Positions 11,975 through 15,697 of a stretch of DNA of 64,000 nt are shown one piece after another; the stretch's first letter is position 1; every line of letters begins with the position of its first letter. A model generated the notes under the pieces. It had not been told where the DNA came from. It did not search any database and saw nothing but the letters and a program-made list of their open reading frames with translations. The position numbers and the translations under genes were made by a program. The stretch lies in contig JAPLFG010000003.1 in assembly GCA_026390795.1 (NCBI GenBank), positions 1,302,001 through 1,366,000 of the forward strand, read 5' to 3'. The stretch is from Ignavibacteriales bacterium. GTDB taxonomy: Bacteria > Bacteroidota > Ignavibacteria > Ignavibacteriales > Melioribacteraceae.

Positions 11975-13252
11975 ATGATGAGAATGAAAAACAAATTTTA
12001 TAATGATTTTGATCTGGAAAGATTAAAACCAAATGCACGCGAAGGCGATTACCGGTCACCATTTCAGATTGACCGGGATAGAATTATTCATTCGTCGGAA
12101 TTCAGACGACTCCAGGGAAAGACGCAGGTATTTTTACCGGGTGAATATGACTTCTACCGAACCCGTCTGACTCACTCTATCGAAGTAGCCCAAATTGGCA
12201 GGGCAATTGCAAGTTTTCTTCTTTCGAAAGAAAAGACCTTTCTCAACGAAGAATATTTTATCGACGAAGACTTGATCGAATCGATCTGTCTTGCGCACGA
12301 TCTTGGTCATCCGCCATTCGGTCACGCAGGCGAACGAATGCTTAATTTGCTTATGAAAAAATACGGCGGCTTTGAAGGAAACGCGCAAACCCTTAGAATG
12401 ATAACCGAAATATTTTACCGGGATGAGGATCATCACCGCGGAATGAATCCGACTAGGGCATTCATTGATGGAATACTAAAATATAAAGCTGCATTCAAAA
12501 AATTTAAGAATCCGGATAATCATTTCATTTACGACGATCAAAATAAAATTATTGAGTATGCATTCGGCGGAAGGGGAACACCAAAAGAATTATCACATCC
12601 CGAAAAATTGAATCAATTCCAAAGCATTGAATGCCAGATAATGGATTGGGCTGATGATACAGCATATTGCATTAACGATTTGGTTGACAGCATTTCGGGC
12701 GGTTTCATAAACATTCAAAAACTTTCCCGCTGGCAGGAAGAGAATAAACTCAATCCTTCTCAAAAAATTATTATCGACGAAATTATAAACTGGATTAAAA
12801 TCGGGAATTTCAAAAAAAAGTTCGGTGCTTTGATTGGTGAGTTTGTGCGCAGCTGCAGCCTAAAAAAACGAAAGACCTTTATGGATGAATTTACGAACCG
12901 TTATAAATACGTTTTGGTAATTGATAAAGATATATTCGAGCGGGCTCAGACATACAAAAAGATTTCTGTTGATTTAGTTTTCCGGTCATCTCAGCTGCAT
13001 CAGATCGAGTTCAAGGGTAATCATATGCTCGAAAAACTTTTTCTACGGTTTGAAGAAAATTATGTTCTTGCTTTAAACGGAACTAGGCTTCTCCCGGATT
13101 TTAACGATAAAATATTACGCGCCGAAAAAAATAAAATAAAACGAGCAAGAATGATTTGCGATTATATTTCCGGCTCTACGGATTCTCACGCAATGAGAAT
13201 GTACCGCCGGTTATTTGATCCGGAGTATAGTTCTCTTTCCGATTTAGTGTAG
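11975..13252 (+). CDS. dgt: Deoxyguanosinetriphosphate triphosphohydrolase-like HD protein
   Basis: 425-aa HD-domain phosphohydrolase that converts dGTP (or other dNTPs) to the nucleoside and tripolyphosphate, so it tunes dNTP pools. The signature SSEFRRLQGKTQVF near residue 40-53, the first metal His in THSIEVAQIGR (His67), the HD pair in LAHDLGHPPFGHAGE (108-109) and the later DDTAYCINDL acidic motif are all present. It is divergent from the CDF gene with 55 nt between them, so the two promoters overlap. Member of the dGTPase type 2-like group by length. Confidence 0.93.
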   Translation: MMRMKNKFYNDFDLERLKPNAREGDYRSPFQIDRDRIIHSSEFRRLQGKTQVFLPGEYDFYRTRLTHSIEVAQIGRAIASFLLSKEKTFLNEEYFIDEDLIESICLAHDLGHPPFGHAGERMLNLLMKKYGGFEGNAQTLRMITEIFYRDEDHHRGMNPTRAFIDGILKYKAAFKKFKNPDNHFIYDDQNKIIEYAFGGRGTPKELSHPEKLNQFQSIECQIMDWADDTAYCINDLVDSISGGFINIQKLSRWQEENKLNPSQKIIIDEIINWIKIGNFKKKFGALIGEFVRSCSLKKRKTFMDEFTNRYKYVLVIDKDIFERAQTYKKISVDLVFRSSQLHQIEFKGNHMLEKLFLRFEENYVLALNGTRLLPDFNDKILRAEKNKIKRARMICDYISGSTDSHAMRMYRRLFDPEYSSLSDLV

Positions 13253-13327
13253 GGCAGAGAAACAATAAATTACTTGTTAAAGAAGCAAAGTTAGCTCCGC
13301 CAAAAGTCTTATCGGCGATCCCATATA

Positions 13328-13618
13328 TCAACCGAGATTAATCGTCTCAATTGCTTTTAAAACCCTTGCCGTGTTTATATTTAAGAATGAGCCAAGTGCT
13401 ACTATCCCAAGGCCAAGCGTTCCGTAAATCAGAAGCGTTGAAATAAAAAGCAGTTGGTGTAATTTATCGCTCCAATTTGCAAAAAAGATAAACAACAATA
13501 ACAACGTGAATTCATACAGAGCTATTCCAATGATCCCAAGTTTTAAATTTTTCTCTCTTTTTTCTATCTGCTCTAATGCTTTTTTTCTTATTGCATCAAT
13601 ATCTACTTCGGATGTCAT
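13328..13618 (-). CDS. Small two-helix membrane protein downstream of a sigma factor
   Basis: 96-aa protein that I do not recognise. A charged N-terminal helix (about residues 6-28, KKALEQIEKREKNLK) precedes two transmembrane segments (about 28-48 and 54-78). It is the third gene of a leftward run: ECF sigma factor (13789-14355), a 30-aa transmembrane peptide (13646-13738), then this gene 27 nt further on. A cytosolic amphipathic segment in front of membrane helices is compatible with an anti-sigma role, but no ZAS or FecR motif is present; that role is inference. Confidence 0.65.
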   Translation of the reverse strand: MTSEVDIDAIRKKALEQIEKREKNLKLGIIGIALYEFTLLLLFIFFANWSDKLHQLLFISTLLIYGTLGLGIVALGSFLNINTARVLKAIETINLG

Positions 13619-13645
13619 ATTTCCTCCAATATTATTTTTACTTTA

Positions 13646-13738
13646 TTAAGTATTTGATAATACAATACGAATTATTAAGAATATCCAGAGCGCCGCTTCC
13701 ATAAGAACGATTACACTAAGAACTATTTTTGTATTCAT
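13646..13738 (-). CDS. 30-aa single-span membrane peptide (overlooked small gene)
   Basis: The minus strand encodes an ATG-initiated 30-codon frame ending in TAA, starting MNTKIVLSVIVLMEAALW and ending with a basic-flanked hydrophobic stretch. Nearly all of residues 5-27 form one membrane helix. It lies 50 nt after the sigma-factor stop codon and 27 nt before the next small membrane gene, exactly where a co-transcribed gene is expected, and it fills that gap. There is no strong ribosome-binding site (CTTGAG close to the start). Function unknown; candidate regulatory peptide of the sigma locus. Confidence 0.5.
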   Translation of the reverse strand: MNTKIVLSVIVLMEAALWIFLIIRIVLSNT

Positions 13739-13788
13739 CTCAAGATTTTTTATTTGATTCAACACAAACTATTCCATCAATTGATAAA

Positions 13789-14355
13789 CTATGTACCAAT
13801 AGTTTCAAGTAAAATTTTATCTTGCTTTGCTTTTTCGCGGAGAATTTGTAAACCGTATGCCAGTCGCGACTTCGCTGTTCCAACCGAAATATTTAAAATG
13901 TCTGCAACTTCGTTTATGGACATCCCGCCATTATAGTGAAGGGTAATTACAGACCGGCTGGCAGGAGAAAGACTATTAACCAACGATGATAGTTTTTCAA
14001 GAATAACTTCTTCAATTTTGTTCTCTGACTCAAAAAAAGAGTGGTTTTCAAGCTGTTCATTCTCCGTCGCAAGTTCTTTATATGAACTATTTTTTCTAAT
14101 GAAACAAAAAATTTCTCTTGTTGCTAGGCGATACACCCACGAACGAAAAAATTCAGGCTGTTTTAACATTGGTAATTTTTTATAAATTATTACAAAAACT
14201 TCCTGAAGAATATCTTTTGCATGTGTTTTATCCGAAAGCATATTATAGATGTACCAGTAAAGTTGACTCTGGATTGTTTTCAACAAAGAATTTAAAGCCT
14301 CTTTATCGCCGGATTGTGCTCTTAGAATTAAAATTAGTTCCTTCTTGTCTTTCAT
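13789..14355 (-). CDS. ECF-type RNA polymerase sigma factor
   Basis: 188-aa sigma-70-family regulator. Region 2 runs from about residue 20 to 90 (SDKTHAKDILQEVFVIIYKK, then FRSWVYRLATREIFCFIR), and region 4 from about 120 to 175 with the helix-turn-helix SINEVADILNISVGTAKSRL that reads the -35 element. No extra domains. The following genes are two small membrane proteins rather than a recognisable ZAS anti-sigma factor. A short inverted pair ACTTT/AAAGT sits right before the start codon on the minus strand. Confidence 0.93.
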   Translation of the reverse strand: MKDKKELILILRAQSGDKEALNSLLKTIQSQLYWYIYNMLSDKTHAKDILQEVFVIIYKKLPMLKQPEFFRSWVYRLATREIFCFIRKNSSYKELATENEQLENHSFFESENKIEEVILEKLSSLVNSLSPASRSVITLHYNGGMSINEVADILNISVGTAKSRLAYGLQILREKAKQDKILLETIGT

Positions 14356-14470
14356 ACTTTATACACAAAGTTCACTGTTCACAAGATATAAGAGTAAATA
14401 TTATAGGAAAGTGTTCGAAAGAAATCTAATCTTTTATATTGAATAATTGAGTAGATGACTAGAGTAGAAA

Positions 14471-15697
14471 TTAGCGGTTATTTATTGAGTTTAGTGCTTC
14501 TTCGATATTTTTTACATCCTCGTAAAACGAAAGAATTTTATTCATCACTTCATCTACAAGGGAATCGGGACATGAAGCGCCGCTTGTTAGAGCGATTGTA
14601 ATTGGTTCTTTTTGCGGAAAATAATTTTCCGTTACTATTTCTTTACGTGTATGTAAATCAAAATGACTTATCAGAATACTCGAAATTATTTTTTCCGAAC
14701 CGGAAATAAAGTAGGTTGGAAATTTTTCTTCCAGAAGTTCAACCAAATGCGAGGTGTTTGAACTGTTATATCCGCCGATAACAATTGCAAGATCGGCATT
14801 GCTTTCAGACAAACGCGTTGTAGCGCTTTGGTTGTCATTGGTCGCATAGCATAATGTATCACGCGTATCGGCAAAATGCTCTTTTAGAAATTCAGCGCCG
14901 TATTTATTCTTCATTGTGTCGCGCAACAGATCAGAAATTGCTTCGGTTTCCGATGCAAGCATTGTCGTTTGATTAACAACACCTACTCGAATTAGATTTT
15001 TTTCAACATCAAATCCGGTTGAATATCTTTCTGCAAAGTACTTATAAAACTCTTCGCCAGCTATTTCACCTTGAATTATCTTTGAAATAATTTCCGCTTC
15101 CTTAATATCCCGGACAATAACCGAGGGGGCGCTTTGCCTACTTCGAGAAAATGTTGCTCGAGTTTCCTCGTGTTTGGATTTTCCATGAATAATAACAGTA
15201 TAATTCGCCTTTCCCAGCTCTGCCGCTCGATTCCAAACCTTTTCTACAAAGGGGCAAGTTGTGTTATACTTAACCGTGTCAATTCCCTTATCTTTTAGAA
15301 AAACTTCAGTTTCAAGTGAAGTGCCGAATGCGGGAATGACAACAATATCATCTTTGGTTATTTCGCTCCAATCAATTAACTGATTACCGTATGTATCTAA
15401 AATAAATTGAATTCCCTGGCTCTCTAGTTCTAAATTCACCATAGGATTGTGAATCATTTCGCTGAGAAGAAAAATTCTTTTGCCGGGATTTTCTTTTATT
15501 GTTTTGTAGGCAATCTCTATCGCGTTTTCAACGCCGTAGCAAAAACCAAAATGGCGGGCAATTAAAAATTTTACCGGTCCAAAATCCAATTCGGTTGGCG
15601 AAAAATCTTTTTTGCGGGGATCTTCAGATTTACGAAACTCTTTCAATTTAGAGATAATAGAGCTTCGATAAATATTTGGTACCTCAAAATTTTTCAT
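14471..15697 (-). CDS. ispH: 4-hydroxy-3-methylbut-2-enyl diphosphate reductase
   Basis: 408-aa Fe-S enzyme catalysing the last step of the MEP isoprenoid pathway (HMBPP to IPP and DMAPP). The three cluster cysteines are in HFGFCYGVENAIE (Cys53), NTTCPFVEKVWNR and RDTLCYATNDNQSA. The E. coli-type enzyme is near 316 aa; this one is about 90 residues longer, with an N-terminal extension of about 40 residues and insertions such as the IIQGEIAGEEFYKYFAERYS segment, as in the long cyanobacterial/plant-like form. Complete and presumably essential. Confidence 0.95.
   Translation of the reverse strand: MKNFEVPNIYRSSIISKLKEFRKSEDPRKKDFSPTELDFGPVKFLIARHFGFCYGVENAIEIAYKTIKENPGKRIFLLSEMIHNPMVNLELESQGIQFILDTYGNQLIDWSEITKDDIVVIPAFGTSLETEVFLKDKGIDTVKYNTTCPFVEKVWNRAAELGKANYTVIIHGKSKHEETRATFSRSRQSAPSVIVRDIKEAEIISKIIQGEIAGEEFYKYFAERYSTGFDVEKNLIRVGVVNQTTMLASETEAISDLLRDTMKNKYGAEFLKEHFADTRDTLCYATNDNQSATTRLSESNADLAIVIGGYNSSNTSHLVELLEEKFPTYFISGSEKIISSILISHFDLHTRKEIVTENYFPQKEPITIALTSGASCPDSLVDEVMNKILSFYEDVKNIEEALNSINNR

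Follow-up and report, generated by a model that had tools for sequence, protein, structure and literature searches.

The window, by which we mean the whole 64,000-nucleotide stretch of Ignavibacteriales DNA that was analysed, encodes on its minus strand (14355-13328) an ECF sigma factor, a tiny one-helix membrane peptide and a 96-aa two-helix membrane hairpin protein. The three genes, their fixed order, a shared promoter-like block and a common genomic site are established in two genera, as is the clade to which the sigma factor belongs. From these features we lean, with some reserve, towards an autoregulated ECF operon in which the hairpin protein would act as a membrane anti-sigma factor and the peptide as its accessory subunit. 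That the small proteins hold the sigma factor at the membrane is plausible, a putative role suggested by gene order, the promoter block and sigma kinship. If true, this would be a very small sigma/anti-sigma set, and it would point to a likely function for the DUF6768 family.

A compact operon between ispH and a dGTPase gene

The preliminary description had placed the sigma factor, the small ORF and the 96-aa membrane protein in this minus-strand run, and all three ORFs lie at the positions given. The sigma factor (188 aa; 13789-14355, minus strand) is an ECF (group IV) sigma factor, with Pfam Sigma70_r2 (1.2e-9) and Sigma70_r4_2 (5e-12) over cut-off and a length below 200 aa. It scores 82.4 bits on the sigma70-ECF superfamily model TIGR02937 (cut-off 42.9), and the best-scoring NCBIfam model is SigY, at 99.4 bits, below its cut-off of 194. 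Behind it lie the peptide gene (13646-13765, minus strand) and the gene for the hairpin protein, our proposed membrane anti-sigma factor (13328-13618, minus strand), whose ATG is preceded by TTGGAGGAAAT. For the hairpin protein, Pfam and NCBIfam give no family over cut-off, nor is kinship to any anti-sigma family detectable in these collections, and the peptide has no match in either. PHROGs and solved structures returned nothing for the small proteins or for a profile of the hairpin protein. An Rfam search of 13300-14500 found no structured RNA, and 13200-14500 holds no terminator-like site.

The run was also described as lacking a ZAS or FecR anti-sigma gene, and this holds: neither the 96-aa protein nor the peptide contains a cysteine, and no FecR match appears up to E = 1. 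The class I ZAS signature is described as Hx3Cx2C, within a cytoplasmic domain (PMC7406223).

Two genes outside the system mark the site. Upstream is ispH (14471-15697, minus strand; NCBIfam NF009911, 492 bits against a cut-off of 440) and downstream, in convergent orientation, a dGTP triphosphohydrolase gene (11975-13252, plus strand; TIGR01353, 323.5 bits against a cut-off of 152). The dGTPase also scores 373.5 bits on an NCBIfam anti-phage dGTPase model, just below the cut-off of 400.

The same arrangement occurs in G022, a genome from another genus of the family: ispH, the sigma factor, a 41-aa one-helix peptide (L032:2030-2155), a 100-aa two-helix protein and the convergent dGTPase gene. 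The sigma factors are 51% identical and the hairpin proteins about 65-67%. The neighbouring genes give comparable values (ispH 66%, dGTPase 70%, the gene beyond 46%), and divergence of the operon is therefore close to that of its surroundings; the hairpin protein (67%) is as well kept as ispH and dGTPase.

Strong matches to the 96-aa protein are confined to its own genome and G022 across five overlapping genome sets (57 relatives and 79 family, 391 class, 164 order and 395 phylum genomes). A two-row hairpin profile likewise found only the own genome (G000) and G022 among the order (164) and phylum (395) genomes. Matches in five further genomes of the class search (391 genomes; E 0.003-0.006) were dropped as chance, and the many weak matches of a single-sequence family search (79 genomes, E up to 10; best 0.0096) were also dropped. 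Further scans of genome contigs for orthologs gave nothing in one case and only G022 in another, and two operons are known, those of the window and G022. Another 21 genomes have an ispH match, and in none of them does the sigma or the hairpin gene occur within ~1.5 kb on each side or up to the contig end. The dGTPase gene directly adjoins ispH in 7 of these 21, where the stops of the two genes lie between 28 bases overlapping and 28 bases apart (1218 bases in the window). Because the sigma and hairpin genes are absent at ispH elsewhere, and ispH and the dGTPase gene stand back to back in seven genomes, the operon is a discrete block, which is either old and often lost or was passed on together with its flanks. 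Sigma matches in 210 plasmid records all fall below 60% identity, and small membrane partners are annotated in none of three plasmid sigma neighbourhoods.

The tiny peptide and the hairpin protein

The 30-codon, one-helix ORF of the preliminary description exists (13738-13646, 30 aa from ATG), but its length is probably wrong. Upstream of that ATG the frame continues without a stop to a GTG at 13765, for a product of 39 aa. As the N-terminus from this GTG (MLNQIKN) resembles that of the G022 peptide (MKNKITN), 39 aa is the likelier product, and either start is possible. A frame not conserved in relatives had been named beforehand as one finding that would count against the proposed anti-sigma set-up; the peptide's position, strand and frame are kept in G022, the sole relative found with the operon.

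Of 5000 dinucleotide shuffles of the 170-base gap in the window, 1 yields an ORF of 28 aa or longer whose helix is as hydrophobic; for the G022 gap, 0 of 5000 yield an equivalent ORF. Translated and paired in every combination of frames (nine in total), the two sigma-to-hairpin gaps score 51 for the peptide frames and 12-31 for the remaining eight pairings. These results, with the same place and strand in both genomes, argue against an untranslated chance frame, which would leave the sigma factor and the 96-aa protein as the only genes. We consider that reading very unlikely, even though a single relative carries the ORF, the ATG at 13738 lacks a clear ribosome-binding site and the similarity of the peptides by itself is modest (127 and 299 of 20000 shuffles confined to the N-terminal and helical parts of the peptide reach a score of 51). 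Codon-position identities between the peptide genes (0.50/0.60/0.40 over 30 codons) also leave room for it, as they point towards selection but are weakly informative. Because the three genes recur in G022 in identical order and at the same site, with the match confined to the peptide frames, the peptide is probably a real gene.

Within the helix both peptides carry a Glu and a Trp, and towards its end an Arg or Lys. Among 40 ECF loci compared, only at the window locus is the sigma gene followed within 320 bases by a free, tiny ORF of strong hydrophobicity. These comprise 21 loci of the own genome (window locus included), the 9 nearest by sigma and 10 with DUF6768; L044, L045 and the G022 operon stand outside this count.

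In the hairpin protein, helices are predicted at residues 7-47 and 52-95 (mean pLDDT 74). Codon-position identities between the window and G022 genes are 0.71/0.87/0.47, with changes concentrated at third positions. Both the hairpin protein and the peptide have a Glu within a hydrophobic helix. A candidate paralogy between the peptide and the N-terminal half of the hairpin protein was dropped: the window pair aligns well, its score being reached by 196 of 20000 shuffles, but that of the G022 pair is reached by 18894 of 20000, and a joint test gives 867 of 5000.

Promoter-like block and sigma clade

The promoter-like block common to the window and G022 (14386-14419, minus strand) reads GAACACTT-N14-CTCTT, with GAACACTT at 14416-14409, 14 intervening bases and CTCTT at 14394-14390. 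Of its 34 bases, 25 are identical between the two genomes, a level reached by 1 of 300 Markov nulls, and it stands 64 (window) and 55 (G022) bases before the sigma start. The pattern fits the geometry of ECF promoters and, because both operons share it, the sigma factor probably drives its own operon. It occurs in exact form once per genome, in both cases at the operon. A wider regulon was considered and rejected: matches with at most one mismatch number 6+6 in the own genome against 7+7 for the control, and 3+4 in G022 against 2+2. Most of these lie inside ORFs, and the sigma factor is the only downstream protein shared. No regulon is evident, since besides the operon there are no promoter copies beyond chance. 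A single sigma-70-like match before the 96-aa gene (minus strand) is at chance level, in a region with 7 such sites against 4.9 expected.

The nearest outside sigma factors were sought in the class (294 genomes) and the phylum (395 genomes). Behind one of them (L043) is a 129-aa two-helix protein with a DUF6768 match below cut-off (E 0.033), and behind another (L119) a clear DUF6768 protein (1e-51). Other listed sigmas with comparable E-values have neighbours of other kinds, or none evident. A DUF6768 search found the family in 10 of 126 phylum genomes, and not in the own genome. At all 10 loci (L126-L135), as at L119, the DUF6768 gene is directly behind an ECF sigma gene (8 of 10 recognised with the window sigma as query and 10 of 10 with the L119 sigma), and a tiny peptide ORF lies between or behind the pair at none of the 10. 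This gene order makes DUF6768 a likely ECF partner, probably an anti-sigma factor. In the open literature we found no study of DUF6768, whether in the role of a sigma partner or otherwise, and the supplements of ECF classifications may list the pairing.

In sigma trees, all 14 factors with a small two-helix partner (the window sigma, its G022 ortholog and 12 other ECF sigmas) form one group, with support of 91/83 (41 sigmas) and 94/89 (35 sigmas), which is below the 95/80 line and thus good, not top. The window, G022 and L043 sigmas form a subgroup within it (94/79 and 96/94). The second tree leaves out 8 long-branched rows of the own genome and adds L044 and L045. Seven of the 28 own-genome PF08281 loci were dropped as LuxR-like by eye (L084, L086, L087, L089-L092), and L132, near-identical to L131, was left out of alignment A4. 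Two own-genome partners with two predicted helices, at L077 (146 aa) and L081 (176 aa), were counted as 'other' because they are longer; their sigmas fall outside the 14-row group in the first tree and are absent from the second. A small two-helix partner is the rule in the sigma factor's own clade, and the peptide is an addition.

Judged by sigma descent and layout, the operon is a member of an ECF/small-hairpin-protein lineage whose hairpin proteins show no sequence kinship. Neither the 96-aa protein nor its G022 ortholog matches the DUF6768 model (PF20556) up to E = 1. Homology of the 96-aa protein is detectable neither to DUF6768, at an hhalign probability of 0.2% against a 10-row profile, nor to the L043 protein. 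For both kinds of hairpin protein, structure models of moderate confidence (mean pLDDT 74 and 71) have two long helices joined by a tight turn, which is weak evidence.

A promoter-like motif, GAAC[CA]TTT-N12-NGWC, stands before the sigma gene at 11 of the 12 partner loci outside the window/G022 pair, although it was first read off these same loci, so the count is no independent test. It takes the form GAACCTTT-N12-NGWC before all 11 sigma genes of L126-L135 and L119, and at L043 a similar site has a spacer longer by one base. Background sequence gave 0 matches: neither the remainder of these loci (77,304 base-strands) nor the stretches before 20 other ECF genes in the own genome contain the motif. 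Autoregulation looks general in the clade, because 11 of 12 partner loci carry the motif against none in the background. The window and G022 have the related GAACACTT, but with CTCTT as the -10 part in place of NGWC. In a class relative (G106, L044:865-2232), an ECF sigma gene is followed by that of a one-helix protein with dozens of AVEDFRNMLA-like repeats, which runs off the contig end.

Candidate roles of the small proteins

In the autoregulated operon that we favour, the sigma factor would recognise the GAACACTT/CTCTT promoter and transcribe its own genes. The 96-aa protein would form a helical hairpin in the inner membrane, where both the charged helix at its N-terminus (about residues 7-26) and the helix at its C-terminus would face the cytoplasm, and would bind the sigma factor and keep it from RNA polymerase. 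The 39-aa peptide may be a one-helix membrane subunit whose pairing with the hairpin protein stabilises or tunes the latter, comparable to YhdK for YhdL. A membrane signal would loosen the complex and free the sigma factor, leading to more sigma and more of its inhibitors. A split, minimal anti-sigma factor, in which hairpin and peptide share the sigma-gripping helices that come from one polypeptide in partners of the DUF6768 or CnrY type, and assemble through their membrane helices, seems to us improbable; the activating signal itself would then be that the peptide is lost or displaced in the membrane.

The peptide may also have other employment beside a hairpin protein that is the anti-sigma factor, being toxin-like, serving quality control or coupling translation of the sigma and hairpin genes. 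Both known operons keep the peptide with the same helix residues, and coupling appears unnecessary given the gaps of 27 (window) and 22 (G022) bases between the peptide and hairpin genes, with a good ribosome-binding site there. We regard such a role as unlikely, though the 10 DUF6768 loci without a peptide suggest that a hairpin partner is enough elsewhere, and with 8 of 30 residues identical, against 62 of 93 in the hairpin protein, the peptide is the faster-diverging of the two. Doubtful, too, is the proposal that the small membrane proteins are the sigma factor's output, an effector pair for membrane stress, with the sigma factor activated in another way, for example by its transcription. 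The tight pairing of ECF sigmas with small hairpin proteins across the clade speaks against it, such pairing being the usual sign of sigma/anti-sigma pairs. The sole exact promoter copy per genome is the operon's own, which leaves the two membrane proteins as the only evident targets, but a promoter pattern drawn too narrowly would also give a one-target regulon. ECF factors without an anti-sigma factor are on record (PMC8999054).

For an anti-sigma complex of hairpin and peptide, a precedent tempers the earlier claim of an unusual set-up: two membrane proteins acting on one ECF factor are known from YhdL/YhdK-SigM, and what stands of the claim is the peptide, which is extra. At a size well above 96 aa, YhdL is much the larger protein, and neither it nor YhdK is known to be a one-helix peptide. 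Bacillus SigM is described as held by YhdL and YhdK, both membrane proteins encoded in its autoregulated operon, and the B. subtilis ECF operon sigM-yhdL-yhdK resembles the arrangement proposed here in its autoregulation and in its two membrane proteins, of which the second helps the first (PMC6827917).

The ECF/DUF6768 pairs share with the window operon a sigma factor of one clade, a small two-helix downstream partner and, in related form, a GAAC-type promoter-like motif before the sigma gene. They differ in that the 96-aa partner is shorter and without a DUF6768 match, and in that the pairs have no peptide. YxlC and YxlD of B. subtilis are small membrane proteins, and the gene order and sizes of sigY-yxlC-yxlD differ from those of the window operon. 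Among NCBIfam models the window sigma scores best on SigY, but at 99.4 bits against 194, and the window partner has no match up to E = 1 to DUF5345, which we take to be the YxlC family. YxlC is named as the antagonist of SigY (PMC4138018). The class II anti-sigma factor CnrY grips its ECF factor with two helices, a very short sigma-binding part like that proposed here (PMC4598750, PMC7406223), whereas the 96-aa protein has a short helix at the N-terminus and another helix at the C-terminus to offer, and a part for the peptide helix is speculative.

Class I anti-sigma domains are the mainstay of surveys of ECF control; they neighbour ~32% of classified ECFs, with domains below 50 aa set aside (PMC7406223). 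The partners in the window lineage are tiny hairpin proteins, including DUF6768, and the conserved peptide is short enough for usual gene calling to miss.

Elsewhere in the window there is a second ECF sigma gene (L074; 45249-45398, plus strand), followed ~79 bases on by the gene for a 348-aa one-helix protein that is FecR-like by eye.
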